Shown here: piece by piece, positions 2,525-61,910 of the stretch | Layout: every line of letters starts with the position of its first letter | Position numbering within the stretch: the first letter of the stretch is position 1 | Assembly: GCA_030765065.1 (NCBI GenBank) | Contig: CM060979.1 | Span: 16,769,001-16,833,000, forward strand | Source of the DNA: Deroplatys truncata | Taxonomy: Eukaryota > Arthropoda > Insecta > Mantodea > Mantidae | Direction: 5' to 3' | DNA: 64,000 nt | Translations under genes and position numbers: made by a program | The notes under the pieces: generated by a model | Told to the model about the DNA's origin: nothing | What the model saw: only the letters and a program-made list of their open reading frames with translations | Databases searched by the model: none

Positions 2525-3530
2525 TTACTTTCTCTACTACGTATAGTAAGTAGGAGAAGTATTGTATTCCACCCAAAAATTCGATACCGAGATTTCACCG
2601 GAAATACATGTTTTGAGACTCCCTGAATCCAAAAAAAGCATTTTTGGAAACATGTCCGTGTGTGTCTGTGAACAGCATAACTCAGAAATGAACAGTCGGA
2701 TAAACACCAAACTTGGTATTTAGGTTCAGTATCTTACAGAGATGCAACACGAAAGTTTTCAAGAAAATCCCCCCATCCCAATTTACCCTTTACATGGAAC
2801 ATTTTTCGAAAATTTTAATTTTCTCAAAAATGTTTCTAACGATTTTGATTAAAATATCATATGTTTAAGATATTTTCATGACAAATGAAATGTATATCTC
2901 GAATTTTCTGGGAATGTCTCCAAAAGTATTCTTCATTGTGAACGACTTTTTCATAACTGGTAAACCATAAGAGATAGACAAAATTTTACTACACAGAAAA
3001 TGTAGATTATTTATGTCATATACATTTTTACTTTCTCTACTACGTATAGTAAGTAGGGGAAGTATTGTATTCCACCCAAAAATTCGATACCGAGATTTCA
3101 CCGGAAATACATGTTTTGAGACTCCCTGAATCCAAAAAAGTCATTTTTGGAAACATGTCCGTGTGTGTCTGTGAACAGCATAACTCAGAAATGAACAGTC
3201 GGATAAACACCAAACTTGGTATTTAGGTTCAGTATCTTCCAGAGATGCGACACGAAAGTTTTCAAGAAAATCCCCCCATCCCAATTTACCCTTTACATGG
3301 AACATTTTTCGAAAATTTTAATTTTCTCAAAAATATCTCTAACGATTTTGATTAAAATATCATATGTTTAAGATATTTTCATGACAAATGAAATGTATAT
3401 CTCGAATTTTCTGGGAATGTCTCCAAAAGTATTCTTCATTGTGAACGACTTTTTCATAACTGGTAAACCATAAGAGATAGACAAAATTTTACTACACAGA
3501 AAATGTAGATTATTTATGTCATATACATTT
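2525..3530 (-). repeat. RF1, two tandem 503-bp partial copies
   Basis: Two almost identical units (2,525-3,027 and 3,028-3,530) each start with the RF1 palindromic end (ACTTTCTCTACTACG on the plus strand) and stop at the same internal position. Both share a small deletion next to the position of the ATCGCGTTAAAATACAC stretch of full copies. The next copy begins immediately at 3,531. The shared deletion and constant 503-bp period show that one truncated unit was duplicated in tandem, rather than two independent insertions. The open frames within are by-products of the repeat and show no sign of being genes. Confidence 0.85.
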
Positions 3531-3660
3531 TTACTTTCTCTACTACGTATAGTAAGTAGGGGAAGTATTGTATTCCACCCAAAAATTCGATACCGAGATT
3601 TCACCGGAAATACATGTTTTGAGACTCCCTGAATCCAAAAAAAGCATTTTTAGAAACATG

Positions 3661-3701
<41 letters not shown>

Positions 3702-4392
3702 GAACAGCATAACTCAGAAACGAACAGTCGGATAAACACCAAACTTGGTATTTAGGTTCAGTATCTTCCAGAGATGCGACACGAAGGTTTTCAAGAAAAT
3801 CCCCCCACCCCAGACTACCCTTTACATGGAACATTTTTCGAACATTTTAATTTTCTCAAAAATGGCTCTAACGATTTTGATTAAAATATCATATGTTTAA
3901 GATATTGGCATCAGAAATGAAATGTATATCTCGAATTTTCTGGGAATGTCTCCAAAAGTATTCTTCATTGTGAACGACTTTTGCATAACTGGTAAACCAT
4001 AAGAGATAGACAAACTTTTACTACACAAAAAATGTAGATCGCGTTAAAATACACAATTTATGTCATATACATTTCTTTTGTTGAGTGAACCGTTTTCAAG
4101 ATATTGCTTGTTATTCCCTTAAATTTTCCAATACTTATACTTTTTCTCAAATTCGTTATTCATTTTTTTATGCCCTGGACATGCAAAGAGAATGGAATGC
4201 GCCACATAGCAACCAGCGCTTAAAATATTTGACTATCGCTTAAAACCTACCATATTCCCCTTGAATCTACAAGAAAATTAGCTATAATATTAACGTCTCG
4301 ATTAACATGAAGCATATGGAGAATAACCGTTTGTAAAAATAGTTTGTACAAGAGTAGAAAAAGTCATGTGAGTGTAACACATCAGGTTTTTT
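3531..4392 (-). mobile_element. RF1 repeat, full-length copy
   Basis: A complete RF1 copy. On the plus strand it starts at the ACTTTCTCTACTACG palindromic end and runs through a TG microsatellite. It ends at the opposite terminus, which reads CAAGAGTAGAAAAAGTCATG followed by GTGAGTGTAACACATCAG. RF1 is the commonest repeat in this window. Its class is unresolved: it encodes nothing recognisable, has only a short shared inverted motif (ACTTTCTCTAC) near both ends, and shows no clear target duplication. Confidence 0.85.
3663..3700. repeat. (TG)n microsatellite inside RF1
   Basis: About 18 TG units at the same internal position where every RF1 copy carries a CA/TG run of different length. It accounts for the runs of alternating His and Thr codons in local reading frames. 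Confidence 0.9.
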
Positions 4393-4719
4393 TAATCCCA
4401 TAATTAAAGGCAAAGCTCCGGGGCACTCGATTTGAGAACTCTGAAGCAGTGCTCTAGAAAAGTGAGACTATTCTCAAGGACCTCACAAAGAAGGCCTGCA
4501 CCATTTGTATGAGGATAAAAATGCATTGAAGCAGGAGGCGATTACTTTGAAAAAGATCTTGTAAGCATTGAAATGTAGTGATAAACATCTGTTAAAAAGA
4601 ATCAGTCTCTGTCTTTGTTGATCAGCTCTCGTATTTCAAATTACATGTATTGAGCTCAAAATACAATGCTAATGTTTTCAGTACAGGACACTATTATAGA
4701 TTATAGCAGCCTTTAGAAT
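4393..4719. other. No supported feature
   Basis: This is AT-rich sequence between an RF1 copy and an RF2 LTR. I see no coding frame or repeat end in it. Its last bases supply the GAAT target duplication of the LTR that follows. Confidence 0.4.
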
Positions 4720-5673: not shown

Positions 5674-5679
5674 GAATTA

Positions 5680-6609: not shown

Positions 6610-7248
6610 GTATACAAACTGTTCTTACTAAAGCTTATTTTTATCTGCTACATTTTAATCCAAATAAAACTTTGTGCAGAAATAGTTACATTACACATTT
6701 CGTTATAGATACAAAGGCAACAGCGACAGTCAAATGTTTAACAACTGGACGTTATATGCTGGCCTTAAAATTACATATCTACTGTTTCCATGACATCGAG
6801 AGAAACAACTGAGTGTTGACAGGACTTAAAAGAATGTCCAAGATATGAACATTTCGAACCTTTAATAATGGATATCTCAGAAATGGCTTATACCACAAAA
6901 AATTATTTGAAATAAATTGTAAGACTTAAAGAGATCTACATTATTTGTGTAGTACTTTTTCGTCTATCGCTTAACGTTCACTTATTATTAAAGATTATAC
7001 AATTCCTTCCCCGAAAATTTTAAGATATACATTTTAGTTGTCATGTAAATAATATACGACATTTTAATCAAAATTGTTAGAGCCGTTTTTTAGAAATAAA
7101 AAAAGTCAAACAATGTTCTAAATAAAGGGTGGTTTGTGGTAAAGGTATTTTCTTGAAAATCTTCGTGTCTAATTCTTCAAAGATATTGAACTTACATTCC
7201 AAGTTTGGTGTTTATCAGATTTTTAGATTTTAAGTCATGCTGTTCACA

Positions 7249-7303
<55 letters not shown>

Positions 7304-7446
7304 GCGGACCTTTTACTAAAAAAATACTTTTTTCATTCAGGGGACCTCAAAACATATACTTCGGGTGAAATCTCCGCATCGAATTTTTGGTTGGAGAGCA
7401 ATACCTTCTCCACCTACTACGTATGTGCTAGATAAAGTAAAAATGT
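6610..7446 (+). mobile_element. RF1 repeat, diverged subfamily 2
   Basis: This aligns along most of its length with the RF1 copy at 60,487-61,346 (opposite strand), including a shared stretch TTCGTTATAGATACAAAG. It ends at the RF1 palindromic terminus (CTACTACGTATGTGCTAG). Both differ from the main RF1 subfamily in the first 300 bp. The internal CA microsatellite is at 7,249-7,302. Confidence 0.7.
7249..7302. repeat. (CA)n microsatellite inside RF1
   Basis: About 25 CA units followed by CGCGCGG. This is the longest CA run in the window, at the standard RF1 position just after the GCTGTTCACAGA motif. Confidence 0.95.
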
Positions 7447-7529
7447 GATGTACTAGGAGTAGACAGACGGAGGGGCTTCCAGTAACTCAAGCACAGCATT
7501 GCACGTGGCCCTTTGTGCTTCAAACGTGA

Positions 7530-8334: not shown

Positions 8335-8337
8335 TAT

Positions 8338-9290: not shown

Positions 9291-9294
9291 GACA

Positions 9295-11241: not shown

Positions 11242-12090
11242 GAAAGAATCTGATGTGTTACACTCACATGACTTTCTCTACTCTTGTACAAACTATTTTT
11301 ACAAACGCTTATTCTCCATATGCTTCATGTTAATCGCGATGTTAATCTTTATTGCTAATTTTCTTGTAGGTGTAAGGGGAATTGGTAGGCTTTAAGCGAT
11401 AGTCAAATATTTTAAGAGCTGGTTGCTATGTGGCGCATTCCATTCTCTTCGTATGTCCAGGGCAAAAAAAAAAATGAATAACGAATTTTCATTTCAGAAA
11501 AAGTATAAGTAATGGAAAATTTAACGGAATAACAAGCAATATCTCGAAAATGGTTCACTTAACAACAAAAAATGTATATGACATAAATTGGTATTTTAAA
11601 GCGATCTACATTTTTTGTGTAAAAGTTTGTCTGTCTCTTATGGTTTACCAGTTTTGCAAAAGTCGTTCACAATGAAGAATACTTTTGGAGACATTCCCAG
11701 AAAATTCGAGATATACATTTCATTTGTCATGAAAATATCTTAAACGTATGATATGCTAATCAAAATCGTTAGCCATTTTTGAGAAAATTAAAATTTTCGA
11801 TAAATGTTCCATGTAAAGGGTAATCTGGGGTGGGGGGATTTTCTTGAAAACCTTCGTGTCACATCTCTGGAAGATACTGAACCTAAATACCAAGTTTGAT
11901 GTTTATCTGACTGTTCGTTTCTGAGTTATGCTGTTCACAGACACACACACACGGACAAGTTTCCAAAAATGTTTTTTTTGGATTCAGGGGGTCTCAAAAC
12001 ATGTATTTTCGGTGAAATACCGGTATCGAATTTTTGGGTGGAATACAATACTTCCACTACTTACTGTACGTAGTAGAGAAAGTAAAAGTG
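11242..12090 (+). mobile_element. RF1 repeat, full-length copy
   Basis: It starts with the TCTGATGTGTTACACTCACA terminus and ends at the palindromic TACGTAGTAGAGAAAGTA end, with a short CA run at 11,940-11,952. It begins one or two bases after the LINE stop, so it inserted at or defines the LINE 3' boundary. Confidence 0.85.
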
Positions 12091-12842: not shown

Positions 12843-13428
12843 TTACTTTCTCTGCAACATATCTGTATTCCACACAAAAGTTCGATATGAAGAGTTCACC
12901 GGAAATACTGTTTTGAGATAACTTTAAACCCCACCCTAAAAATATTAGAAAAAGGCGACCGCGCGTGTGCTTGTATGTGTGTGAACAGCATAACTGCAAA
13001 ACCAAAAGTTCGACGAATACAAAATTAGTATATAAGCTCAATATCTCCCAAGGATGCCAAATTCCCCAGCTCCAAATACCCTTTATATGCCACTTTTTCG
13101 AAATTTTGTATTTCCTCAAAAAACGTTTCTAAGGATTTTGATTAAAATACTACAGATAAAGATTTTTACATGAAAAATAAAACGCATATTTTGAATTTTC
13201 TGTGAATAGTTTGTGAAGTCCTCTTCATTCTGAATGAATTTTGTATAATTGGCAAACCTTAAGAGAGAGAGAGAGAAAATCTTACTACACAAAAACTGAT
13301 ATCATTAAAGCACACAATTTACATGCTCATTTTTTTTTTTGTTAGCTATTTTCCAAATATTCCTTCTTATAAGTTTGAATTTCCAAATTACTTTTCTCAA
13401 CCAGGAAGTCTTTATTAGCTTTTGACTT
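12843..13428 (-). mobile_element. RF1 repeat, old diverged copy
   Basis: It starts at a degenerate ACTTTCTCTGCAACAT terminus. It shares the order of conserved RF1 blocks (CACCGGAAATACTG, GTGTGAACAGCATAACT, TTTCTCAA) with many substitutions, and ends where the next RF1 copy begins. This is the first of four pieces lying end to end. Confidence 0.7.
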
Positions 13429-13954
13429 TTTCTACTATGTACAGTAAGCAGATGAAGTATTGCATACATGTTTTGAGCCCATTAAATAAAACAAAAGCAG
13501 TTTTAGCAAAAGGTCCGCGCGCGTGTGTGTCTGAACAGCATAACTCAAAAACGAAAAATCGGATAAATACCGAACTTCGTATTTGGGTTCAGTATGTTTC
13601 AAAGATGCGACTCGACTTTCGAGAAAATCCCCCACTCTAGACTACCCTTTACATGGAACATGTTTATTATAATATCATATATAAGATATTTTCATGAAAA
13701 TTAAAATGTATATCTTGAATTTTCTGGGGATATTCCTAACAGTCCTTTTCATTCTGAATGACTTTCGCACAACTGGTACACCGTATGAGATAGACAAAAT
13801 TTTTCTGCACAAAAAATATAGATTTCATTAAAACACACAATTTATATCCAATACATTTTTTTAACGAGTAAACCATTTCCGAGACATTCCTTGTTATTTG
13901 TTTGAATTTTCCAATACTTATATTATTTCTCAAGTGAGAATTCGTTATTCTTTT
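13429..13954 (-). mobile_element. RF1 repeat, diverged copy with internal deletions
   Basis: The palindromic end is preserved as CTTTTTCTACTATGTACAG. The block between that end and the microsatellite is shortened. It stops where the full RF1 copy at 13,955 starts. Confidence 0.7.
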
Positions 13955-14848
13955 TTACTTTCTCTACTACGTATAGTAAGTAGGGGAAGTATTGTATTCC
14001 ACCCAAAAATTCGATACCGAGATTTCACCGGAAATACATGTTTTGAGACCCCCTGAATCCAAAAAAAGCATTTTTGGAAACATGTCCGTGTGTGTGTGTG
14101 TGTGTCCGTGTGTGTGTCTGTGAACAGCATAACTCAGAAACGAACAGTCGGATAAACACCAAACTTGGTATTTAGGTTCAGTATCTTCCAGAGATGCGAC
14201 ACGAAGCTTTTCAAGAAAATCCTCCCACCCCAGATTACCCTTTACATGGAACATTTTTCAAAAATTTTAATTTTCTCAAAAATGGCTCTAACGATTTTGA
14301 TTAAAATATCATATGTTTAATATATTTTCATGACAAATAAAATGTATATCTCGAATTTTCTGGGAATGTCTCCAAAAGTATTCTTCATTGTGAACGACTT
14401 TTGCATAACTGGTAAACCATAAGAGATAGACAAACTTTTACTACACAAAAAATGTAGATCGTGTTAAAATACACAATTTATGTCATATACATTTTTTTTT
14501 GTTGAGTGAACCATTTTCGAGATATTGCTTGTTATTCCCTTACATTTTTCAATACTTATTTTCTAAAATGGGAATTCGTTATTCATTGTTTTTGTCTTGG
14601 ACATGCAAAGAGTATTAATCTGTGGCAAAGGGAATGGTGTTGCACCTAGCAACCAGCTATTAAGAGATATGTATGTGCTTAAAGGCTACTGTATTTATAT
14701 ATTCCCCTTACATTTACAAGAAAATCAGCAATAAGAGTCTGCAAATGTTTATCTCGTGTAACATGAAGTAGATGGAGAATAAGCGTTTGTAAAAATAGTT
14801 TGTACAAGAGTAAAGAAAGTGGTGTGAGTGTAACACAGATTTTTTAAT
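13955..14848 (-). mobile_element. RF1 repeat, full-length copy
   Basis: Complete copy from ACTTTCTCTACTACGTATAG to the opposite end GAGTAAAGAAAGTGGTGTG. The TG microsatellite (14,088-14,118) is interrupted by CCG. It is close in sequence to the copies at 3,531 and 42,724, so it is younger than its two left neighbours. Confidence 0.85.
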
Positions 14849-14965
14849 TTGTTTTTGTTCGGAGGACCTCAAAACATGTATTTCCGTTGAAATCTCCATA
14901 TTTAATTTTTAGGTGTAATGGAAGACCATCTCTACGTACTATGTACGTAGTAGAGAAAGTAATAA
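14849..14965 (+). mobile_element. RF1 3' end fragment, opposite orientation
   Basis: Only the last ~115 bp of RF1 in plus orientation. It includes the palindrome CTACGTACTATGTACGTAG (stem CTACGTAC/GTACGTAG around a 3-base loop) and the terminal TAGAGAAAGTA. It abuts the 5' end of the previous minus-strand copy. Confidence 0.75.
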
Positions 14966-15556
14966 AGTAAACGATAGTGGGGAATTTGAATTCTGTGCAG
15001 TTGAGGTATTTTTATGAAGAAAGAGAAGTGGTTGGTTCTACTCATAGCTGCCAAGCAGGCTTATCCTGCAGACCAGAAACATCAAGTCTCAAAAAGTAAG
15101 GCAATATTGCTCATGAGATGCACATATACTTGTGTTTGCTTCGTTGAATAGCATCATGAAAACGAGAACACGCAGAGCCGTATTCTTTATTTCAGAATGA
15201 GGCTCCAGCAGCTATAGAATATAAAGAGAATGAAAAGTCATTTGGCAGGATGTTGCTGCTTCTTTCTTTCCACGCGGTTCCTCTCTACATTCTGTAACTT
15301 TTCTTTATTTCACTTACAGCCTTCGCAGATTCTGTTCCACCCATAAACAGACATATTTCTTCATTGTAACGGGAGAAAATAAAAACCTCAGAGCACATCC
15401 GATGTTTAGGTGATTTAAGAGCCACGTCACTCTAATCTCCATACTAGTTACTTTAATTTTAAGCAGATTGTAATTCCTACAATACTAAAATATAATGCCA
15501 TAAGCGTACAGTCCAAAGGTAAACAAATCCTAAGTAAGGTTAAACTGAGCAAGCTA
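14966..15556. other. No supported gene or element
   Basis: There is no convincing coding frame here. The stretch ends at the TA (15,555-15,556) used as the target site of the mariner that follows. Confidence 0.4.
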
Positions 15557-16758: not shown

Positions 16759-16760
16759 TA

Positions 16761-17602
16761 GATGGATCTGCGGTAACGTGTGAGGCACGTATTTGGAGGT
16801 TCCGGGTTTGATTCCCGTCGACCGTCTCGAGGTTTTTCTTGGTCGGTAGGAGAATGCTGGGATGGTTTCTCATCTACCACGATTTCTTTTCCATCTTTTC
16901 CCTTTCATTTCGTTTCTTTCTCATCTTTTAGGTTAGGTGCTGTTAGGTTTCGTGCCGTATGGCGCTGCCGGACAGAACGAGTTGTTCATCGCCCTCTCCA
17001 GGCACCTCCAGTAGTGGGACGGGTCTTCGAGCCTGGAAGTGTTATTGACTTCCGCTACTCTCTGTCTGTCTGTCTGTCTGCCTATGAGCTTCCCGTAAGG
17101 GGGGTTCCGACCCCTTCAGCTGCCGTGATGCGGGCGCTGCGTACCCTGAGCACTCGTGGTAGGTACATCTGACGTTACGAGAAGTACGCTGGGCCGAACA
17201 TTCGAGCCCCTCCCGTGGGAGAGTTGTTCGGATTGGGTTGGACTCGGCAGGGCAATGGTTCCCGAAACCAATGGGAGATTGGGTACGTCTATATAGGTTT
17301 CCATACCGGCGGGGTTGTGAGACTCCTCAATGTCCTTCGGTACCGCCCTGGATTGCCGGTAGACGGCTTGCTAGATTGCTGTCGGCCTTACTGAGGTTTT
17401 CGGTAGTCGTTCTTTCGGGATGACGCGCGTAAGTGACGTAACCACTTCCATCATCGCGTGAGCCTCATGGGAAATACCCTCGGTGGGAGAGCCACACCCT
17501 GGGCTAGGAGGGGGGCTCTACCTCGGGTAGACCTTCGCTCTTAACTAAAATAACTGTCTGCCTATGAGCTGTAGCCCCCTGTGGTCCTTCACTTTATACT
17601 GG
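16761..17602 (+). mobile_element. tRNA-derived SINE-like unit, split by an insert
   Basis: The tRNA-like head has B box GGGTTTGATTCCC near 16,804-16,816. It is followed by a body that matches the unit at 61,922-62,300 over long stretches (for example GAGAATGCTGGGATGGTTTC against GCGAATGCTGGGGTGGTTTC, and TCCAGTAGTGGGA in both). A third copy is on the minus strand at 39,020-39,110. The body is interrupted at 17,091-17,553 by a separate insertion. The 5' edge coincides with the mariner's right TA, so the mariner may have landed in this unit, but the left flank does not prove it. Confidence 0.6.
17091..17553. mobile_element. 463-bp insertion with 17-bp target duplication
   Basis: The sequence CTGTCTGCCTATGAGCT occurs at 17,074-17,090 and again, perfectly, at 17,554-17,570. 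It bounds a GC-rich 463-bp segment that is absent from the sister SINE-like unit at 61,922. The segment ends in a short A-rich tail (TTAACTAAAATAA). A long perfect target duplication plus an A-rich 3' end is the signature of target-primed reverse transcription, so this is a truncated LINE or a SINE. No coding frame or Pol III box was recognised. Confidence 0.7.
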
Positions 17603-17845
17603 TTCACACGAAGATATTCAAGAAAATCCAGTACCTCAAACTACCCTTTACATGAAAACGTTTTCACTATTTTTAATTTTTTCAAAAATGGCTACAAGAA
17701 TTTTGATTAAAATACCATACTTTGGGATATTTACATGGAACAAAATGTATATTTTGTATTTTCTGCGAAAAGCTTCTGAAGTCTTTTTCATTCTGAATGA
17801 CTGCTGTATCATTCGTAAACTATAAGAGATGGGTAACAATTTCAT
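17603..17845 (-). mobile_element. RF1 internal fragment
   Basis: A diverged internal RF1 piece on the minus strand, recognised by the blocks CTACCCTTTACATG, ATTTTGATTAAAATACCATA and ATAAGAGATGGGTAAC in RF1 order. Both ends are missing. Confidence 0.65.
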
Positions 17846-18035: not shown

Positions 18036-19791
18036 TGAAGCTGTTTTAGACCACGCACGTAATGGATGCCAATTTGTGGGCGTTATGTACGGTACGGTAC
18101 AAACTTTCTGGTGGCCTTCGCCACACGTTTAAGAACCAACTTTGTATTTTAATGTTTATTTTATTTAAATATTATATATGCCTCGGCTTCGTCAGTAGTA
18201 ATTTGCAGAACACGTATCTCTTAACAGAGCTGGTACGGCTAAAGAACAAGACTTACACAAATTATAATTGTACTCCACTCCCTTTATTTATCCTTCACAC
18301 GATTAAATAACACTTCACTGATGTATCCTACTGTGGAGCTGTGAGATTATTGTTAAATTGCACTTTTAACAGGTAAACTTTATACTATCCTCACCGCAAT
18401 GAATTTTCATGTCTCACACTGACCCATACCGAACCTAACTGCTTGGGTACGTTTTCTTGTAGCGTCTACCGCCTCTATTTCTAGTATCTGATTGACTAAT
18501 CCTACTCCAATAGAATACTTTTATTTAACTTTTAGCTATTTTTCTAGTCTTTGATTGGCTATTTATAAACTGTTTTAAACATTACATTATTATTGTTCCA
18601 AGAACTATTAGTAGCCTTTTTAAACGTTCATTGTGCAAACTCTTGCCATATTGTCCATCACATGGTTCACAGATGAAGCACAGTTGCATTTATCCGGCTA
18701 TTGGGCCAGTGAAAATCCACATGTTATTCATGAAGCACCTATGCAGCCGGTTAAAATCGGAGTTTGGTGCGCAATATCCGCACAGAGAGCAGTGGCACCA
18801 ACTTTTGTTGAAAACAATGTGAACACTGCAGAGTACCGACGGATTTTCATGGAGTTTGCTGAGCAACTAGACGATGAAACCAACGACAATAATTCATTGT
18901 CATGAAGAATTTTGACATCGTCAGCATTCATGTTGTGGCGTTTGTCACGAAGGGCACGACGCAACTTCACCAAAGTTTTCATGTAGGCTGCAGCATTCAC
19001 AGTGGTCCCGTGTTTAGCAAAGTCCACCAATACAACACCGTGCATATCCCAGAACACCATCACAAGCACTTTCCTAGCAGATTGAGTCACTTTGAATTTT
19101 TTCTTCACTGGGGAACCAGCATGTTTCCACTCCATACTTGCATGCTTGGTTTCGGGCGTGTAGTGGTAAAATAGGCACAACTCAACACGTCGTTCCATGT
19201 TACTGGCCACTCGTTGGAGGACTCTGTTGTCAATAGCTTGAATCTCCTGTGTAATGTTGTGCTTCAGATCTTCCAATGTCTGGGGACGTGTGGCATAAAC
19301 CCTGTCATTTAAGTAACCCCACAGAAAGAAGTCCGGCGATGTCAAATCCGGAGATCTCGGTGGCCACAGGTTCTTGGAAACTATCCGGTCGTCAAAGAAA
19401 CTTGCAATTAATGCCATGGATTCATTTCATGTATGATATGTAGCACCGTCCTGCTGAAAATATCCTTGACTCAGCTCTACATCGTCTAGATGTTCTAATT
19501 TATTGTTGTCTCAAGGTTACCTTATTAGCAACTTTCGGTTTCTACTTTATGATTCTGTTTGCTACGGTAAGCAGCTTGCTTCTATTCTCACAGCTCCTAC
19601 ATTGTTAAACTACGCAATACATTCACATAACATTGTTATATATGTACATAATAATATAAACATAATACACTGACTTTAATATACACTTTATATATTATAT
19701 TATACACATATTGCTTTAAGGCGGGCTGCTATTATTTTTTATATTAGGTATATTAGACTGATATCATTTAAGTGATAAAAACACTGCCTCA
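18036..19791 (-). mobile_element. RF2 LTR, minus strand, interrupted
   Basis: Reverse-complement copy of the 954-bp RF2 LTR at 4,720, matching from TGAGGCAGT (ending at 19,791) to AGCTTCA (18,036). It is more diverged than the other two copies. It is split between about 18,624 and 19,495 by rearranged transposase sequence. No matching target duplication is visible at its ends (CAATA on the left, AGTTC on the right), so it may be an eroded copy or one end of a larger element. Confidence 0.65.
18624..19495. pseudogene. Rearranged transposase mosaic (two Tc1/mariner families)
   Basis: Four blocks are joined. At 18,643-18,877 (plus) lies the central part of a DUF4817-type transposase: WFTDEAQLHLSGYWASENPH through EQLDD. 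At 18,878-18,898 a ~20-bp piece of the same element is inverted. At 18,899-19,165 (minus) lies part of a mariner very like the one at 15,557: HYTPETKHASMEWKHAGSPV and KVTQSARKVLVMVFWDMHGV. At 19,166-19,495 (minus) lies the C-terminal part of the first family: YFQQDGATYHT, SKNLWPPRSPDLTSPDFF and GYLNDRVY. The plus and minus pieces of the first family both break at CTAGACGATG. No terminal repeats are present, and the mosaic sits inside an RF2 LTR. Confidence 0.75.
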
Positions 19792-20496: not shown

Positions 20497-21154
20497 AAAA
20501 ATTTGATGTATTACACTAACATGACTTTCTCTACTCTTGTACAAACTATCTTATTGCTAATTTTCTTGTGGGTGCAAGGGGAATATGGTAGGCTTTAAGC
20601 GATAGCCAAATGTTTTAAGAGCTGGTTGCTATGTGGAGCATTCCATTCTCTTTGTATGTCCAGGAGATAAAAAAAAAAGAATAACGAATTCCCATTTCAG
20701 AAAAAAGTATAAGTATTGGAAAACTCAAACAAATAACAAGGAATATCTCGAAAATGGGTCACTGCACAAAAATGTATATGACATAAATTGTGTGTTTTAA
20801 CGAGATCTACGTTTTTCTGTGTACTAAAATTTTGCCCATCTCTTACAGTTTACCAACTCTGCAAAAGTCATTTAGAAAGATGAAGATTTTTGGGGAAATT
20901 CCCAGTAACTTCAGCATATACATTTCATTTTCCAGGAAAATATCTTAAACATATGACATTTTAATCAAACTCGGAGCCATTTTTGAGAAAATCAAAATTT
21001 TCGAAAAAGTGTTTCATGTAAAGGGTAGCCTGGGGTGGGGTACTTTCTTGAAAATCTTCGTGTCGCATCCTTGGAAGATACTAAACCCAAATAGCAAGCT
21101 TGGTATTTATCCGAGTTTTCGTTTTTGAGTTATGATGTTCACAGACAGGCAGAC

Positions 21155-21195
<41 letters not shown>

Positions 21196-21230
21196 CATGC
21201 TTCCAAAAATGCTTTATTTGGATTCAGTGC
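20497..21230 (+). mobile_element. RF1 repeat, 3'-truncated
   Basis: RF1 in plus orientation from the 5' terminus (TTGATGTATTACACTAACAT) through the CA microsatellite (21,153-21,193) to GGATTCAG at 21,228. There the usual 3' end is replaced by the ORF1 element. The remaining RF1 end does not reappear downstream of that element. Confidence 0.8.
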
Positions 21231-24174: not shown

Positions 24175-24562
24175 AATCATTTTTGAAAATAATTCTATAT
24201 TCTCACACCTACTTGATTACGCAAAGATTTTACTTTATACAGTCCATGGCTACCTGAATTATCTAGAACTGTTACAACACCTGCAATGACCAATGAACTT
24301 TGTTACCAAAATACTTTTATCATTCGTAATTATAACCAGCTTCATGTATCGGACGGGGTACAAATTACTTCACTACAATTATAGTGAATTATAAATCCCA
24401 TTTAATTATAAGTGCAAGCCGGTCTTAGGTCAAAGATAGATAACATTTATTCAACAACAAATAATTAAAAAAAACAAAGATAATTCAACTAGAAACTGCT
24501 TCATAAATTTATCACAGCACTCCAAAAATCCAAGCAATTTTATATTCCGGTATTCAATCCTT
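24175..24562. other. No supported feature
   Basis: AT-rich sequence with no conserved frame. It ends at the RF1 terminus at 24,563. Confidence 0.4.
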
Positions 24563-25092
24563 ATTACTTTCTCTACTACGTATAGTAAGTAGAGGATTTT
24601 GAACAAAATATATATGTTTAAGATATTTTCATGGAAAATAAATGTATATCTTGAAGTTTCTGGGAATGGCCCCAAAAGTACTTCATTGTGAATGAATTTT
24701 GCATGACTGGTAAACGTTAAGAGATAGACAAAATTTTACTATACAAAAAAATATAGATCTCGTTAAAACACACAATTTATGTCATATACATTTTTTTGTC
24801 GAGTGAACATTTCCGAGATATTCCTTGTTATTTGTTTGAATTTTCCAATACTTGTTCTTTTTCTGAAATGGGAATTCGTTATTCGCTTTTATGTCCTGGA
24901 CATACAAAGAGAATGCAATGCTCCACATAGTAACCAGCTCATAAGCATTTGACTATCGCTTAAAGCCTACCATATTCCCCTTGCACCTACAAGAAAATTA
25001 GCAATAATGATTAACATGAAGTAGATGGAGTATAAGCGCTTGTAAAATAGTTTGTACAAGAGTTGAGAAAGTAATGTGAGTGCAACAGATAA
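24563..25092 (-). mobile_element. RF1 repeat, internally deleted
   Basis: Both RF1 termini are present (ACTTTCTCTACTACGTATAG at the left, TTGAGAAAGTAATGTGAGTG at the right), but about 300 bp including the microsatellite is missing just inside the palindromic end. A copy with intact ends and a gutted interior shows that the ends define the unit. Confidence 0.8.
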
Positions 25093-25239
25093 GAGTGTTT
25101 ACGTAAAATACTCACCACGCAGTATACGTTTACTAAAATAAATAATTCTCATCACCTCGTCAGTTCCTCAGCATTTCATATATTTGTTAGCAGTTTCGCC
25201 ACGTACTCTTGTTATATTAAAACAACAGTAAAATGTGTA

Positions 25240-29138: not shown

Positions 29139-29754
29139 GCCAATCGAGGCAATCCGAGTTGAAAGCGAGTCGAGTGTGACACTCAGTGCGTGTGAGCCGC
29201 GAGGTGAGGAGTGGCGACGTAGAGCGAGTCACTTCGGTCAGTCGGTGAGGGCTTCCCGTGCGACATCATGAGCGAGTTGGTGTAGACTTCTGTGACGTGC
29301 AGCGAGTGTACCGCAGAGCGACGGTTGTGGAGGACTTGTGTTCGGCTCCCGAGTGACGTGAAGGGGCTGCGTCACGAAAAAAGTGAACTAACGGAGAACT
29401 GAACTACTTCATCTGAGTGGAGTGACATTGTGAAGTGAACCCGCAGTGAAGCTGAACAGATGAGAACTAAGAACAGTGACAGTTGAAAAACTGGACGAAG
29501 TCACAATTAATTGTACAATAACTTTATAAAGAATGAGGGCGGTAAATGAAATTAATTCCATAGTGGAGTTTTTAAAAAGCGTGCAATATGGGATAAACCA
29601 ACTAGTAGATTTGTAAATAATTTATTAAATAGTCAATGACTATAGTAGAAAGTACCGCCATTATAAAGCTTAAGTTTGAAGTTTGACGATGCTACGTTGT
29701 TTACTAATTGCTTGGCAGCCATCAATAGTGAACTCTCTCAGCGAATTTGTAAAC

Positions 29755-33430: not shown

Positions 33431-33924
33431 TCGTTAACAAACAAAACGGTAGGTTTTTTAAAAAAATACAGAAAATTATTTTCGAAATACTTCATTATTT
33501 GTTCTTGTTTCACATCATCGTCGTTGAAATGTTTTCCACCAAGGAATTGATCAAATTGTTCCCAGCCAAATAATGCAATCAGATCTTGAGTTGGTTTGGC
33601 CGGAAGTTGTCACTCATTACTGCTTCCCCATAAACCTCACACAATTGACAATGATTGTTTGCTGGCCTGAAATTCCACGCAATTCAAAAAATGAATCACT
33701 GATCTGACTTTACAGTCGGCGGGTCGTTCGACTGTTTTGAACATTTCAAAACGCTCTAAAACAGGAAAACACAAAGTGACGCTCGCTCACAGCTGCGTCA
33801 GGCTTCCTATTAAATTGAGGAGGCGATTGCGCATGCTCAAATTCGCGACTACAGCGCTACAGCGGCAAAGTATTAAAACGGCACTTACTTTAAAAGCAGG
33901 ACTCGTACTATGCGTAGTACATAA
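33431..33924. other. No supported gene
   Basis: Unassigned sequence. Its last bases (GTACTATGCGTAGTACATAAAGTAA) look like a worn RF1 palindromic end abutting the next RF1 copy, consistent with end-to-end insertion. Confidence 0.45.
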
Positions 33925-34710: not shown

Positions 34711-34717
34711 ATAATTT

Positions 34718-38684: not shown

Positions 38685-39018
38685 AAGATTCCATTGCATT
38701 CCACCCAAAAGTTCGATACGAGAGTTTACTGGAAATACACGTTTTGAGGTTCCCCGAGTCTAAACAAAGCGTTTTTAGTAAAAGGTCCGCTCGCGTCTGT
38801 TTTCTGTGAACAACATAATTCTGTGAACGGCAACATTGCTCATATGAATACCAAACTTGGCATTTCAGTTTAAGTATTTCGCAAAAATGCGATTTTCAGA
38901 AAATCTTCAACCCCAAATTACTCTTTAAAATGAAAATTCCTCCTCATTTTTTCTCTCAAAAAAGGCTAACGATTTTGATTAAAATACCATATCTTTATGA
39001 TATTTGCAATGACAAATC
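38685..39018 (-). mobile_element. RF1 repeat, partial
   Basis: The palindrome-end half of RF1 on the minus strand. The first ~20 bp are eroded and the copy stops in the GATTTTGATTAAAATACCAT block where the SINE fragment begins. Confidence 0.7.
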
Positions 39019-42012: not shown

Positions 42013-42723
42013 TACATACGCATATATCCTTGTTCCGGCTCATAAAATATTGTCTTCTAACAAACACAGCAATAACATTTGGTCTCTTAAGTGGAAATTA
42101 AAATGTTAAATCTGTTAAATTTATGACTCATTATCTCGGAAATTATTTAAAATATCAAACTGAGATTCTTAAGGCCTTCTTAGTCCATCGATCAACTTTT
42201 ATCCAGTAAGTTTGTTAATTAACCTATTAATACCGAATTTAGTTTGCTACATTTGCCGCTCTTCGTGTAATTCCTAAATCCGCTTTCATATCCCTTTCAC
42301 GGCCAGCAAAACCGACGCGATTCATATAGCCGTGATAGTTAATTTTAGACGACATGGACTGGACATCCATTCGAAGTCAAACGTCACGAGTCCGAATCCC
42401 AGCAACTGCAGTCAAATGTGCCTATGGTACCGGACGGGGAGAGCCCACGTAAAACAAATAGTGTGATGGCACGCTAGGATGCTGACTGGAGAAGCAAGGT
42501 TTTGTTTCTTATTCTTTAAAAAACACTACAATTTTTTTTGCAAAAAGATTCATATTTTTACAATATAATACAGCTATAAATTTGTAATTTATTGTTGAAG
42601 GTTAGTATAACAGCAAATTTAAATTATGGTATCATATGGGGGCATAATCGTAATGTCTGTAAGGATTTGAGGCAACGGTATACAGTATTTATTTTGCTGT
42701 TTGTTAATAGCTCTAATTATATT
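42013..42723. other. No supported gene; weak SINE-like stretch
   Basis: At 42,330-42,500 a B-box-like CGAGTCCGAATCCCAGC follows a poor A-box region, possibly an old SINE. The remainder is AT-rich and unassigned. Confidence 0.35.
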
Positions 42724-42853
42724 TTTACTTTCTCTACTACGTATAGTAAGTAGGGGAAGTATCGTATTCCACCCAAAAATTCGATACGGAGATTTCGCCG
42801 GAAATATATGTTTTGAGACACCCTGAATAAAAAAAAGCAGTTTTGGAAACATG

Positions 42854-42887
<34 letters not shown>

Positions 42888-43562
42888 CAGCATAACTCAG
42901 AAACGAACAGTCGGATAAACACCAAACTTGGTATTTAGGTTCAGTATCTTCCAGAGATGCGACACAAAGGTTTTCAAGAAAGTCCCCCCACCCCAGATTA
43001 CCCTTTACATGGAATATTTTTCGAAAAATTTAATTTTCTCAAAAATGGCTCTAACGATTTTGATTAAAATATCATATGTTTAAGATATTTTCATGACAAA
43101 TAAATGTATATCTTGAATTTTCTGGGAATGTCTCCAAAAGTATTCTTCATTGTGAAGGACTTTTGCATAACTGGTAAACCACAAGAGAGAGGCAAAATTT
43201 TACTACACAAAAATGTAGATCGCGTTAAAATACACAATTTATGTCATATACATTTTTTTTGTTGAGTGAACCATTTTCGAGATATTGCTTGTTATTCCCT
43301 TAAATTTTCCAATACTTTTTCTCAAACGGGAATTTGTTATTCATTTCTTTATGTCCTGGTAATGCAAAGAAAATGGAATGCTCCACATAGCAACCAGCTC
43401 TTAAAACATTCGACTATCGCTTAAAACCTACCACATTCCCCTTGCATCTACAAGAAAATTAGCAATAAGATTAACATGAAGCATATGGAGAATAAGCGTT
43501 TGTAAAAATACTTTGTACAAGAGTAGGGAGAGTCATGTGAGAGTAACATATCAGATTTTTTT
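42724..43562 (-). mobile_element. RF1 repeat, full-length copy
   Basis: Both termini are intact; the TG microsatellite lies at 42,857-42,884. It is close to the consensus of the copies at 3,531 and 13,955. It ends next to a FLYWCH-like fragment. Confidence 0.87.
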
Positions 43563-49930: not shown

Positions 49931-50747
49931 ACACAATTTTGTGCGGAATTATATGTTTGAAGAACAGGAGAGTTAAAAGCAAAGCTATTCTTCGTGACAA
50001 AAACTGCTTCCCAATAAAGGTCAAGCATCAATATTTTATATCTCTAAAGCTGCAGAAGTTACACACATATTAGCTGTTACGTGTTTTATTTTATAACCTT
50101 TCTGGCGGTATATTTTCCTTTTATTTGCGCGTTGTTTGGGATTTTCTCTCATTAAATCCCCAGCATTCAGTAATCAAGCAGGAATCATTTATGAAACACT
50201 GTTGTGGGACGTTTTAACATATTAGTGAAAACAGAGTTTGAAAACCCGTTGGGAATTTCCCTGTACTAATGGTTTGCAATCAGGAGTAGAGATGGCTCTC
50301 TCGCCCACTTCCCAACTGGCTGGTAAGGGGAGGAGGGTCCCACATCACAAATAGTGGCACGCATTATTTTTACATCTGCGCACCAGAGTGAAGCCATATT
50401 CGGCAAAAGTAAACACCCAAGCGAAAACAAAAGAGGCTCGATTATTGTTTGTGCGCGCATGCATGACAAAGCCCCCGCCGTTTGCACGCGAAAAGCTGCC
50501 AACATTGACTAGATCTCACAGTTTGTTTCCCATTTCTTTAATGGTCAGAGTATTTTTACTGCGCCAGTGATAACGGTTAACATTTGTAGAGAGGAGGAAT
50601 TCGGAAAATATGCAAATGGAGTGTCCGTTATGAGATAATGCGTTTTTTTTTTTAAAAAAAATAAGACCAGTGGCGGCTAGTGTATAAGAGCACAAGAGAA
50701 CGTGAACACCACTGTCTCTTGACACCCTGCGGATTTATTGGTTATTA
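49931..50747. other. No supported gene or element
   Basis: Overlapping short frames on both strands at 50,266-50,725 lack any domain. Nothing else was recognised. Confidence 0.4.
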
Positions 50748-51204
50748 CTTTTTCTACCACGTGCATAGTACACCACCCAACAGTTCTATATCGTGATTTC
50801 ATCGAAAATACATGTTTTGAGAGCCCCTGAATAAAAAAAATTACCAAAACGGTCCCTGTGTGTGTGTGTGAACACTATAACTCAAAAACGAAAAGACGGT
50901 TAAACACCAAACTAGATATTTAAGTGTATTTATAACTTCGAAGGATACAACTCAAGATTTTCAAGAAAATTTTCGCATTCCAAACTACCCTGTATATGGA
51001 AACTTCTTCGAACATTTTTATTTTCTCAAAAATGGTCCTGATGATTTTGAATAAGGTCCATATATACTAAAGATATTTACATAAAAGGTACAATGCAAAG
51101 CTTGAATTTTCTGGGAATAGCCTGTGAAGCTCACTTCTTTCGGAAGGAATTTTGAATAACTGGAAACGTTAAGCGAGAGACGAACACGTGCTACAGAAAA
51201 AATG
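50748..51204 (-). mobile_element. RF1 repeat, diverged partial copy
   Basis: It begins with a degenerate palindromic end (ACTTTTTCTACCACGTGCATAG), retains the TG run (50,861-50,872) and block order, and stops where the next RF1 copy starts in the opposite direction. Confidence 0.7.
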
Positions 51205-52010
51205 TGATGTGTTACATTCACATGACTTTCTCTACTCTTGTACAAACTATTTTTTACAAACGCTTATTCTTCATATGCTTCATGTTAATCGAGATGTTAA
51301 TCTTATTGCTAATTTTCTTGTAGATGCAAGGGGAATTGGTAGACTTTAAGCGATAGTCAAATATTTTAAGAGCTGGTTCCTAAGTGGTGTATTCCATTCT
51401 CTTTGTATTACCAGGACAAAAAAAATGAATAACGAATTTCGATTTGAGAAAAAAGTATAAATATTGGAAAATTTAAGGGAATAACAAGCAATATCTCGAA
51501 AATGGTTCACTCAACAAAACAAATGTATATGACATAAATTGTGTATTTTAACGCGATCTACATTTTTTGTGCAGTAAAATTTTGTCTCTCTCTTATGGTT
51601 TACCAGTTATGCAAAAGTCGTTCACAATGAAGAATACTTTTGGAGACATTCCCAGAAAATTCGAGATATACATTTCATTTGTGATAAAAATATCTTAAAC
51701 ATATGATATTTTAATCAAAATCGTTAGAGCCATTTTTGAGGAAATTAAAATTTTCGAAGAATATTCCATGTAAAGGGTAATCTGGGGTGGGGGGATTTTC
51801 TTGTAAACCTTTGTGTCGCATCTCTGGAAGATACTGAAACTAAATACCAAGTTTGGTGTTTATCCGACTGTTCGTTTCTGAGTTATGCTGTTCACAGACA
51901 CAGACACACACACACACACACACGGATATATTTCCTTCGTAAGAATATTTGTATACAAACTAATAAAGGGTAGAGCGTAGAAAGTCATGTGAATGTAACA
52001 CACCAGAATC
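51205..52010. mobile_element. RF1 copy with the same terminus at both ends
   Basis: The left end is the usual 5' terminus (GTGTTACATTCACATGACTTTCTCTAC). The copy runs in plus orientation to the CA microsatellite (51,900-51,921). Beyond it, in place of the palindromic 3' end, comes an inverted 5' terminus (GTAGAAAGTCATGTGAATGTAACACACC). So the unit has long inverted ends of the same type. It could be a fold-back rearrangement or two insertions sharing a deletion. Confidence 0.7.
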
Positions 52011-52310
52011 TTTTTCCTTTGAATCCTTTACCGTATACGCGGTAAAAGCGGTAATTTACAATCGGCAGCGTTGAAATCTACCCCGCTACTCCACTAAACT
52101 CGGCGAAACATGACAACATGTTCGCTAGCACGTCTTGATATGTGCACGTTTTAAAGAGCTTTTGCGCATGCGCCACTGGTATGACGTAAGCACCTTATGG
52201 GTCCAATACATACGGCTCGTGCCCACTTGAAGGCGTGCACTAGCGCGGCTAACTACTCCCGCGATGCCTCCATAGCTACTAATCAGTAGAATTTTACGTC
52301 AATGCCACTA
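52011..52310. other. No supported feature
   Basis: Unassigned sequence with CpG-rich patches, ending at the TA (52,309-52,310) that marks the left target site of the next element. Confidence 0.4.
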
Positions 52311-56435: not shown

Positions 56436-56612
56436 ATAAAAATCTCATGTGTTACATTCACATGGCACAGCTTCTACATACTATCTTATGAAAGCTTACT
56501 AGTTTTTTTACCACCTATCTATACTAGGTAAAAGGAAATATTGTATTCCATCCAAAAATTCAAAGTACAGATTTCACCAGAGATACACATTTTGAGCCCC
56601 CTCAATAAGGGT
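56436..56612. mobile_element. RF1 composite fragment
   Basis: It begins with the RF1 5' terminus in plus orientation (TCTCATGTGTTACATTCACA). After about 80 bp it continues with the palindrome-end half of an RF1 in minus orientation (ATTGTATTCCATCCAAAAAT, ATTTCACCAGAGATACAC). It is a fusion of two ends with the middle missing. Confidence 0.6.
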
Positions 56613-57088
56613 TCCCACAAAAATGTAAATCTAACTTCCCTGATCAAAACACGTATTTCCCTGACCACAATTTTGTATTTGCGCAACTTTTACCGGGTTT
56701 GGTAATGGTTCCATATATACCCTCCAGTTCAGTGCGGAAGAAAGATGATTTACAGGAAAGTGCGTATATTAGACACTTGAAAAGGAGATGTGAACAGTTA
56801 GAGAGCCTGGGTCCACCCATTTTAACACACTTTCTTATATACAAAATAAATGGCTATATGTCAATAAAGTACTGTGTTTTGTTACTTTTGCTCATACCGG
56901 ATGAAAGTGCCCACCGAAGAGTACTAGCGAAATCCCCCAAAATAGGGATGTTTTACTTATTCCAAACATTCTCGTTACTTAGTGTATCTATACTACCAAA
57001 TAGTGTTATACTTCTTCATTAGGGTTTAGCCTCACACATCCTATGGCTTCGCCGTTGTTGTTACTCTGGTTAAAAATATATTCCTCGG
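56613..57088. other. No supported gene
   Basis: A 107-codon frame at 56,699-57,022 and an antisense 66-codon frame share this region. Neither has a domain I recognise. Confidence 0.4.
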
Positions 57089-57918
57089 CTACGCTTTGCA
57101 GCTTAGGGCCCTCAACCCTGGACTACGCTTTGCGGCTTAGGGGTCTCAACCCTGGGCTACGCTTTGCGGCTTAGGGCCCTCAACCCTGGACTACGCTTTG
57201 CGGCTTAGGGCCCTCAACCCTGGGTTACGGTTTGCGGCTTAGGGCCTAAACCCCGGTCTATACTTTGCGGCTTAGGACCCTTAACCCTGGCCTACGCTTT
57301 GTGGCTTAGAGCCCTCAACGTTGGGCTACCCTTTCCGGCTTAGGACCCTCAACCCTGGCCTACGCTTTGTGGCTTAGAGCCCTCAACGTTGGGCTACCCT
57401 TTCCGGCTTAGGGCCCTCAACCCTGGGCTACGGTTTGCAGCTTGGAGCCTCAACCCTGGGCTACGGTTTGCAGGTTGGAGCCTCAACCCTGGGCTACGGT
57501 TTGCAGGTTGGAGCCTCAACCCTGGGCTATAAATTGCAGCTTAGGGCCCTCAACCCTGGGCTACGGTTTGCAGCTTGGAGCCTCAACCCTGGGCTACGGT
57601 TTGCAGCTTGGAGCCTCAACCCTGGGCTACGGTTTGCAGCTTGGAGCCTCAACCCTGGGCTATAAATTGCAGCTTAGGGCCCTCAACCCTGAGCTATGCT
57701 TTGCGGCTTAGGGCCCTCAACCGTGGGCTACGCTTTGCAGCTTAGGGCCCTCAACCCTGGGCTACGGTTTGCAGCTTAGGGCCCTCAACCCTGGGCTACG
57801 GTTTGCAGGTTGGAGCCTCAACCCTGGGCTATAAATTGTAGCTTAGGGCCCTCAACCCTGAGCTACGCTTTGCGGCTTGGAGCCTCAACCCTGGGCTACG
57901 CTTTCGGCTTAGAGCCCT
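57089..57918. repeat. Minisatellite, about 24-25 units of 33-34 bp
   Basis: Tandem units built on CTACGCTTTGCGGCTTAGGG followed by CCCTCAACCCTGGG. Several unit types recur in order: a CTACGGTTTGCAG(C/G)TTGGAG type in runs of three, each run followed by a CTATAAATTGCAG type, which points to a higher-order period of about 130-170 bp in the right half. The left half has an alternating CTACCCTTTCCGG / CTACGCTTTGTGG pair repeated twice. Open frames across the array result from the unit lengths and are not genes. Confidence 0.93.
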
Positions 57919-58375: not shown

Positions 58376-59224
58376 TTAAAAAATGTGTTACACTCACATG
58401 ACTTTTTCTACTCTTGTACAAACCATTTTTACAAACGCTTGTTCTCCATATGCTTCATGTTAATCGAGATATCGAGATGTCAATCTTATTGTTACTTTTC
58501 TTGTAGATGCAAGGGGAATTGGTAGGCTTTAAGCGATAGTCAAATATTTTAAGAGCTGGTTGCTATGTGGAGCATTCCATTCTCTTTGTATGTCCAGGAC
58601 AAAAAAAAAAGTGAATAACGAATTTGAGAAAAAGTATAAGTATTGGAAAATTTAAGGGAATAACAAGCAATATCTCGAAAATGGTTCACTCAACAAAAAA
58701 AAATGTATATGACATAAATTGTGTATTTTAACGCGATCTACATTTTTTGTGTAGTAAACGTTTGCCTATCTCTTATGGTTTACCAGTTATGCAAAAGCCG
58801 TTCACAATGAAGAATGCTTTTGGAGACATTCCCAGAAAATTCGAGATATACATTTCATTTGCCATAAAATGTCTTAAACATATGGTATTTTATTCAAAAT
58901 CGTTAGAGCTATTTTTGAGAAAATTAAAATTTCCGAAAAATGTTCCATGTAAAGGGTAATCTGGGGTGGGGGATTTTCTTGAAAATCTTCGTGTCGCATC
59001 TCTGGAAGATACTGGACCTAAATACCAAGTTTGGTGTTTATCCGACTGTTCGTTTCCCAGTTATGCTGTTCATAGACAGACACACATACGGAACATGTTT
59101 CCAAAAATGCTTTTTTTGATTCACGGGTTCTCAAAACATGTATTTCCGGTGAAATCTCGGTATCGAATTTTTGGGGGGAATACAATACTTCCCGTACTTA
59201 CTATACGTAGTAGAAAAAGTAAAA
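58376..59224 (+). mobile_element. RF1 repeat, full-length copy
   Basis: Both termini are present (GTGTTACACTCACATGACTT; TATACGTAGTAGAAAAAGTA). The CA run is short and impure (59,077-59,090). It is followed directly by another RF1 piece in the same orientation. Confidence 0.85.
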
Positions 59225-59690
59225 AAGTTGTTTGTAATAAATGGTGGGTTTTGAAGAGATCCACATTTTTCGTGTATTACGCTTTTGTCTACCGCTTAAC
59301 GTTTACCAGTTATATACGATTATATAGATTTCCTTCCGAATGAACTGGAGTTGACACTTATTCCCAGAAATTTCAAGATATACATTTTGGCGTGTAAGCA
59401 ACTTTAATATATAGTATTTTAATAAAAATTGTTACAGTAATTTTTTAGAATTTAAAATAAATTTAAAAATGTTGCATATAAAGGGTAGCTTGGGGTGAGG
59501 GAATTGCTTGAAAACCTTTGTATCGCATCTTTGGAAGGTATTGAATTTAAATACCAGCTTTAGTATTTTTCTAAAAATGAATTTTTTCAGGGGCCTCAAA
59601 ACATGTATTTCCGCGGAAATCCCGATATAACTTTTTTTAGTGGAATGCAACACCTTCTCTACTTTCTAAGTACGTGGTAGATAAACTACC
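59225..59690 (+). mobile_element. RF1 repeat, subfamily 2, partial
   Basis: The second half of RF1 in plus orientation, lacking the CA microsatellite. It ends CTAAGTACGTGGTAGATAAAC. It lies head to tail with the preceding copy. Confidence 0.7.
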
Positions 59691-60486
59691 TAGTTCTCAA
59701 GAAGTTTTCAAATTAAAAAATCTGAAGCCTAGTTTGTAAACACGTAAAACAAATTTACCGTGAACCTTCTAAATCTTGTTTTTGTTTCATTTTCACGGAT
59801 GCAGAGTTTAATGCCACTTACCACATCACGTTTTAGTTGTACAGTTCGTATGATACACAATTTTCTAAATGGCGCCACGCTGAAATAGCTTTCGGCTGTG
59901 GATATAATCCCTACTGGTTTGGAAACACGTTGCTACGCAAGTCGGTTCTTGTTTTTAGCTTTGTAGCCCTTGAACCGCCCTATTACTGCGGTTCAAAGCC
60001 ATCGCCATGCGGTATTTAGGCGTCGAGCACTTCCCCGACGGTCGTCAAGAGATGCAAATGAGGATCCGCAAGTAAAGACGTGGATGCTCGTCTAAATGCT
60101 CTTTTCACTACATTCTCCAAGCTACGACTTCTCTCGCCTGCACCAACCTGACATATGCACATTACAAACACAAACTAACAAGTGTGCAAGTACTTGATTC
60201 AGCTTTAAGGAGGGAAAAATACTTTAAATATCTATGAAAATAATTATTAAACCTTTATGTCCTATATTTTCGATAATTTGTACTTTAGAGGTTGACATAT
60301 TTTGTAAAGAAATTTCAAAATGAATGCAAATGACTATTTCTTAAGGATACCTCACTAGTGAAATTTCTAAAAATCCACAATTACACTTCAATTCATTGTA
60401 ATTTAATACAAGAATCAGATTTTAATGTATATTATATAGACCATATTACATGTATGTCTTTAAATTAGCACGCGAGATATTAATTC
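59691..60486. other. No supported gene or element
   Basis: A GC-richer stretch at 59,860-60,180 contains a 60-codon frame without domain. The rest is AT-rich and unassigned. Confidence 0.4.
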
Positions 60487-61346
60487 TTACTTTCCCTACC
60501 CGTACATGGTAGATAGAGAAGGTATTGCATTTCACCCAAAAATTCGATACCAGATTTCACCGGAAATGCTGTTTTAAGGTCCCCTGAATAACAAAGTATT
60601 TTTTAGAAAAAGGTCCGTGTGCGTATGTGTCTGTGTCTCTGAATATTATAACTCAAAAACCAAAAGTCAGATAAAAACCAAACTTGGTATTCAGATTGCG
60701 ACACTAAGATTTTCAAGAAAATTCCCCAACCCTGAACTTCCCTTTACATGGAATATGTTTCGAAAATTTTAATTTGCTAAAAAACTGCTAACGATTTTTA
60801 AAGTACCATATATTACAGATATTTACACGACAAATAAAATATATATCTTGAGTTTTCTGGTAAAGGCCTGTGAAGTCCTCTTCATTCGGAAGCAAATTTG
60901 TATAATACTGTATAACTGGTAAACGTTAAGCGAAAGACGAAAACGTGGCTCACAAAAATTGTAGATAAGTTTAAAATACACAATTTATTTCAAATAAATT
61001 TATTGTTACATCAGCCATTTCCGAGATATTTGTTATTAATGGTTCGAATTGTGCAATACTTAGCCATTCTTTTAAAGTCCTGTCGATTTTCAATTCTTTC
61101 TCGCGATGTCATGGAAACAGTATGGAATTATAAGGCCAGCATATAGCGTCCAGTTGTTAAACATTTGAGTGTCGCTGTTCTCTTTGTATCTATAACGAAA
61201 TGTGCATTGCAGCTATTTCCAAAAAGGCTTATCTCGATTAAAATGAAGTAGATAGGAAAACAAACTTACCTAAGCATAATTTGTGTACTCATAATAAGCG
61301 ATAGATGGTAGAGAGTCATGTGAATGTTGCATTCAGATTTTTAAAA
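60487..61346 (-). mobile_element. RF1 repeat, subfamily 2, full-length
   Basis: From CTTTCCCTACCCGTACATGG to the opposite end (GGTAGAGAGTCATGTGAATG). It shares its distal 300 bp with the copies at 6,610 and 32,566, which defines the second subfamily. Confidence 0.78.
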
Positions 61347-61369
61347 GTAGCTCGGGAGATATTAATTTT

Positions 61370-61910
61370 TTACTTACTCTACCGCGCGCGCGCGCGCGTG
61401 TGTGTGTCTATGAATAGCATAAGTCAAAAGTGAAAAATCGGATAAATACCAAACTTGGTATTTACGTTCAGCATCTTCCAAAGATGCGACACCAAGATTT
61501 TCAAGAAAATCCCTCGGCCCTAAAGTATCCTTACATGGAATATTTTTCGAAATTTTTTACTTTCTAAAAAGTGGCTCTAACCATTTTGATCAAAATATTA
61601 CACATTAAAGATATTTACATGACAAATAAAATGTATATCTTGAATTTTCTGGGAATAGCCTGTGAAGTCCTCTTCATTCGGAAGGAATTTTGTATAATCT
61701 TGTATAACTGGTAAAGCGATCGAAGACAACGTGCTACACAGAAAATGTAGATCTCCTTAAAACACAGAATTTATTTCAAATAGCTTTGGGACATCGGGCA
61801 TTTCCTAGACTTATTTCAATACCTTTTCATTTTTTAAACTATTTGTATGAACGCTTATCTCAATTATTCATCCAAAATCTAAAAGTGACAAGAAAATTTT
61901 GTGTTAAGAT
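61370..61910 (-). mobile_element. RF1 repeat, partial, with CG/TG dinucleotide run
   Basis: It starts near the RF1 microsatellite, the palindrome-end block having been lost (TTACTTACTCTACCGCGCG). It continues through the conserved internal blocks to about 61,910. It lies in the same orientation directly after the copy at 60,487. Confidence 0.7.
61384..61410. repeat. (CG)n(TG)n run
   Basis: About eight CG units pass directly into five TG units, giving a 26-bp alternating pyrimidine-purine tract. It has replaced the plain TG run of other RF1 copies. Confidence 0.9.

Follow-up and report, generated by a model that had tools for sequence, protein, structure and literature searches.

What kind of transposon is a gene-less repeat that recurs, singly and in head-to-tail arrays, along one stretch of a mantis genome, and how did its arrays arise? 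The question is raised by 64,000 nucleotides of Deroplatys truncata (GenBank assembly GCA_030765065.1, contig CM060979.1, positions 16,769,001 to 16,833,000; hereafter the window, in whose own coordinates all positions are given) and by a repeat, here called RF1, that an initial annotation had described as about 24 pieces covering roughly 14 kb. Our analyses indicate that RF1 is very probably a family of non-autonomous Helentrons (HINEs). Its mapping started from the copy at 13,950-14,965, and eight long copies were aligned to give an 862-bp consensus; searching the window back with this consensus returned 33 BLAST pieces totalling 13,156 bp, so that the dispersed family is real. Allowing up to three mismatches, a 17-mer at the 5' tip was counted 15 times where shuffles predict 0.15, and there are five occurrences of the 34-bp 3' end where 0.00 are expected. 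The suggestion of at least two subfamilies also stands, as copies separate by their identity to the subfamily A consensus into A (about 85-96%) and B (about 70-80%, with the exception of one 43-bp piece at 84%). The reported lack of coding sequence is likewise borne out: four open reading frames (ORFs) of at least 110 amino acids lie mostly within RF1 (from 12724, 33087, 42619 and 58960), all of them cross the GT/CA site, and none looks coding, a judgement made by inspection and not by a protein-family search.

Read from 5' to 3', the element begins with TTTTT and the subterminal inverted repeat (subTIR) ACTTTCTCTACT, followed by a partly complementary fold-back stretch AGTAAGTAGGGGAAGT and a left part; a GT run separates the latter from a body of about 660 bp, which contains two long T runs (consensus 537-544 and 634-640) and is followed by the inverted subTIR AGTAGAGAAAGT; after this come the hairpin ATGTG-agtgtaa-CACAT, then CAGA, and then a T run, the end sequence being GTAACACATCAGATTTT. 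The absence of long terminal inverted repeats (TIRs) had been correctly noted, though the subTIR had been overlooked. It is a perfect 12-bp repeat (consensus 6-17 against the inverted 824-835), a length of match that shuffling the 3' 60 bases reached 3 times in 5000. With at most one mismatch the 12-mer occurs 21 times, against 0.26 expected; judged by position, 20 of these occurrences are RF1 subTIRs and one (at 59652) lies within a copy's 5' inverted repeat. In the consensus the 5' subTIR directly follows TTTTT, which gives an offset of five bases, not 2-4, if all Ts are counted as part of the element, and the first 60 bases fold into one hairpin covering it. The 3' palindrome (ATGTG-agtgtaa-CACAT) is short, stops 9 bases before the consensus end and is weak in single copies. 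The CA/TG run described at a fixed internal site was recovered: of 19 units, 16 carry there 6-52 bases of uninterrupted GT repeat, two have a degenerate but GT-rich stretch, and one has lost the site.

The polarity of the element required one correction. A palindrome at 14,930-14,950, beside TAGAGAAAGTA, had been taken for a terminal hairpin; it is indeed present, but it belongs to an inverted 116-bp fragment of a 5' end (14852-14967, minus strand) and is the 5' inverted repeat read backwards, so that it marks the 5' end. The opposite end, given as TCTGATGTGTTACA, is present too, and is the 3' end read backwards. The same fragment accounts for an apparent 115-bp TIR at 14,852-14,965 in our first BLAST comparison, which we rejected, as none of the remaining eight 3' ends (of nine compared) is followed by such a repeat.

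The insertion sites were compared in nine insertions with both ends available, including three arrays and one interrupted copy. The longest word common to both flanks averaged 3.4 bases, against 3.9 in 72 mismatched flank pairs, which reveals no fixed duplication and agrees with the initial impression that no target duplication is evident. At least two Ts precede the 5' subTIR in eight of the nine insertions, and at least two Ts stand at the 3' end in seven, in three of these after one A.

These features were set against the marks of HINEs given in the available portions of PMC4067079 and PMC7492417. In the former, HINEs have subTIRs, of which the 5' one is itself palindromic or is accompanied by an inverted repeat, as well as a palindrome on the 3' side, and they insert into T-rich targets that are not duplicated; a microsatellite is frequent. 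By the criteria taken from the two, the subTIR measures 11-15 bp and lies, on the 5' side, some 2-4 bases from the terminus, the 3' subTIR and palindrome lie about 38-60 bp and 8-35 bp from the end, respectively, and insertion occurs in T-rich DNA with at least two Ts at each end. At consensus level RF1 shows or is compatible with these marks, though its 3' subTIR is borderline in its distance from the end, as is its 3' hairpin in strength. The earlier proposal of a Helentron-like or DINE-1-like element thus gains support from the subTIR, the 5' inverted repeat, the T runs at most ends, the microsatellite and the absence of target duplication. The CTRR end, whose absence from RF1 had been raised as a doubt, is, in the text seen of PMC4067079, a trait of canonical Helitrons.

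Comparison with known systems, made from their published descriptions, points in the same direction. As far as the excerpted PMC4067079 goes, the HINEs of Metaseiulus occidentalis and Culex share with RF1 palindromic subTIRs of 12-15 bp a few bases from the 5' end, a palindrome near the 3' end, weak in single RF1 copies, variable T runs at the borders, a T-rich target without duplication and, in some copies, microsatellites, whereas the 3' subTIR of RF1 lies slightly nearer the end. DINE-1/INE-1 of Drosophila is described in the same source with a subTIR and short 5' inverted repeat, a microsatellite, a 3' stem-loop and a preference for TT, all comparable to RF1, whose own 3' hairpin is weak. 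Cg_HINE of Crassostrea gigas, in the portion of PMC7492417 available, likewise combines an 11-12 bp subTIR, a complementary inverted repeat in its left module, a microsatellite, a 3' subTIR with palindrome and a T-rich target; it differs in having satellite-like monomers of about 165 bp in its centre, while RF1 forms arrays of whole units or 5' parts instead. We regard RF1 as a new family in a known transposon class, the known HINEs having been compared by description and not by sequence. A limited literature search, which is no proof of absence, found no published description of RF1 or of T-run junctions in Helentron arrays, and the absence of RF1 relatives from viral, genome-contig and phage collections carries little weight, since these collections are non-animal.

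The head-to-tail arrays already recognized were found at 12,843-14,844, 58,376-59,688 and 60,484-61,816, and an additional one at 2522-4391. Three of them share a common architecture. The array at 2522-4391 (plus strand) consists of two truncated A units of 503 bp (2522-3024 and 3025-3527) and a full A copy (3528-4391); that at 12843-14844 (plus strand) of two B units (12845-13416 and 13420-13951) and a full A copy (13952-14844); and that at 58376-59688 (minus strand) of a truncated B unit (59688-59221) and a full A copy (59225-58383). They thus carry three, three and two 5' tips, respectively, and one 3' end each. The truncated inner units stop at consensus 541, 541 and 542 (junctions 3025, 3528 and 59225), within the T run at 537-544; at 638 (junction 13952), within the run at 634-640; and at 631 (junction 13420), two bases short of the latter run and with TTTT at the junction. 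Of the five truncated junctions, four fall inside the two longest T runs within the element and one lies beside such a run. Because a deletion is common to the first two units of the 2522 array, which are 98.4% identical, the five junctions were counted as four distinct events; the two T runs occupy 15 of 840 positions, and the corresponding chance, (15/840)^4, is about 1e-7 for four distinct events, or about 1e-6 when a margin of three bases is allowed on each side. As the junctions were located through the 5' tips, it is the upstream break position alone that this calculation tests.

An origin of such arrays has been proposed for Fusarium Helitrons, in which, according to the available part of PMC5148889, multiple 5' termini arise when an element inserts into its own kind and the product then transposes, starting at the outer 5' end and stopping at the first 3' end. 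FoHeli elements of the Helitron2 type resemble RF1 there in their 12-bp inverted repeat, in having a repeat and a hairpin on the 3' side, about 30-40 bp from the end, and in that some copies combine several 5' termini with only one 3' terminus; the ATTTT end of FoHeli1/2 is a further likeness. They differ in their target, between TNAT and T, and in the length of the duplicated 5' parts, which is typically below 200 bp against about 500-570 bp in RF1. The RF1 arrays fit this composite model and add to it the position of the junctions in T runs. Self-insertion into T runs followed by transposition of the composite is accordingly the origin that we favour, with a confidence that stops at about even. 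Nested insertion with a retained remainder, which was also considered as the source of the three arrays, is disfavoured: queries with A and B found no 3' remainder of an outer copy downstream of any of them in the window.

Among the alternatives, the one that survives best, as a possible though less probable origin, is that the arrays arose by read-through or template switching during rolling-circle replication, either by bypass of the end or by premature termination at the internal T runs. Bypassed termination signals are mentioned for tandem Helitrons in the portion of PMC4067079 available, and the near-identity and common deletion of the first two units of the 2522 array imply a duplication for that step at least. 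The truncated units of the arrays at 12843 and 59688, on the other hand, have about 70-75% identity to the A consensus (84% in the 43-bp piece), against 90-92.5% for the last unit; these unequal identities place the units in different subfamilies, which is not expected from one replication event of one donor. The mixture of subfamilies in two of three arrays speaks against bypassed termination as the only cause.

We consider it rather unlikely that host repair alone, by microhomology-mediated duplication or deletion between T runs and with no transposase involved, produced the arrays. All five inner junctions do lie in stretches of 4-6 or more Ts common to both partners, but the partner at the junction is always a 5' tip and never another T run, a regularity that is partly built in, as the tips served to locate the junctions. 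The fourth array (60484-61816, plus strand) differs from the other three in that its first unit, a full-length B copy at 60484-61341, has its own 3' end; the second B unit (61365-61816) retains its tip and GT run and has lost a 5' internal part. The 18 bases ahead of the two B units, at 60468-60485 and 61350-61367, agree at 16 positions and reflect either an old tandem duplication that included the 5' flank or a duplication-like effect at the target, unlike what is seen at other insertions.

With respect to the class of the element itself, a cut-and-paste DNA transposon resembling miniature inverted-repeat transposable elements (MITEs) would agree with a short, gene-less, AT-rich sequence present in many copies, and HINE-like elements were formerly annotated as MITEs, as the text seen of PMC4067079 states; RF1, however, possesses only an asymmetric 12-bp inverted repeat, none that is terminal, and no target duplication, which makes this classification very improbable. 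Least plausible of all is a derivative of a canonical Helitron (Helitron1), which would share the hairpin near one end and the lack of target duplication, but inspection of the aligned RF1 ends revealed neither a TC start nor a CTRR end, and subTIRs are present.

According to the mechanism that we propose, a Rep/helicase/endonuclease encoded elsewhere in the genome would move RF1 in trans, recognizing the 12-bp subTIRs, the 5' inverted repeat and the 3' hairpin; one strand would be copied by rolling-circle replication and inserted into T-rich DNA without target duplication. Arrays would begin when a younger copy inserts into a T run inside an older one, its orientation being set by the strand that bears the Ts, and the composite could then transpose as a unit that starts at its outermost 5' tip and stops at the first 3' end reached, so that a single 3' end is retained alongside several 5' tips. 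An antisense A copy nested in a B copy, at 51198-51937, abuts an A run of its host with its 3' end.

Several observations weigh against this account and the class assignment beneath it. The nested A copy just mentioned is 5' truncated and its host lacks about 300 bp, neither of which a simple model predicts, and the distinct array junctions number only four, all located through the tips. Single copies beat shuffles in folding (p at most 0.05) at just 6 of 19 5' ends and 2 of 13 3' ends. The 3' subTIR occupies bases 39 to 28 counted from the end (824-835 of 862, with 27 bases after it), at or below the published 38-60, and the T run at the ends is not universal (8 of 9 at the 5' end and 7 of 9 at the 3' end). 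A search of the window with the joined flanks of 13 insertions for empty sites gave only self, partial-flank and chance-level matches. Finally, no Rep/helicase was found in the part of the window scanned, which comprised 20 of its 26 stop-to-stop ORFs of at least 110 amino acids and one partial frame: three of the 20 matched Pfam, all to transposases or helix-turn-helix (HTH) domains, and nothing in Pfam matched the single plus-strand frame examined over the first 30 kb, in which stops were read as X.

Outside the arrays, full A copies lie at 11244-12087 (minus strand) and 42722-43560 (plus), and an A-like copy at 20497-21227 (minus) is 5' truncated, with a small internal deletion and its 3' end kept. 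An A copy with an internal deletion occupies 34711-33928 of the stretch 33905-34711 (minus); directly after its full 3' end at 33928 comes only the 23-base 5' tip of another copy (33927-33905). B is represented by a copy with a 52-base GT run and a degraded 3' end (6613-7443, minus), a copy without its 5' tip (32566-33316, minus), a fragment (38693-39017, plus) and the copy at 50742-52012 (plus), which is split by the antisense A copy (minus) and whose 3' end restarts at about 51938. An internal fragment (17606-17830, plus) and a copy with an internal deletion removing consensus 37-337 and a degraded 3' tip (24561-25094, plus) were also mapped. At 56438-56606, two end fragments, a 3' end (56438-56464, minus) and a 5' part (56534-56606, plus), are divergent and have about 70 bases between them.

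The window also holds other mobile and repeated sequences. A 341-amino-acid Tc1-like transposase ORF without inner stops lies at 30875-31897 (minus strand), and pieces of transposases at 29680-30210 (Mos1-type HTH) and 18731-19426 (Transposase_1). A GC-rich minisatellite of 34 bp, with about 25 copies and 84% matches, occupies 57083-57918. Two similar stretches at 16760-16893 and 61931-62037 (about 84% over 67 bases and 83% over 30), one of which adjoins an RF1 array, look like heads of tRNA-derived short interspersed nuclear elements, and a tRNA-Cys (gca) gene or tRNA-derived repeat is present at 2147-2218 (minus strand).

Our results place an abundant, previously unclassified repeat in a known transposon class and supply its ends. 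They also suggest a checkable rule for the formation of Helentron arrays, namely junctions in T runs, orientation according to the T-bearing strand and a single 3' end, which bears on the origin of satellite DNA. More tentatively, the long plus-strand T runs of RF1 may act as landing pads where further copies of the family insert in the same orientation, and the composites so formed, with many 5' tips and one 3' end, might spread and seed satellite arrays.

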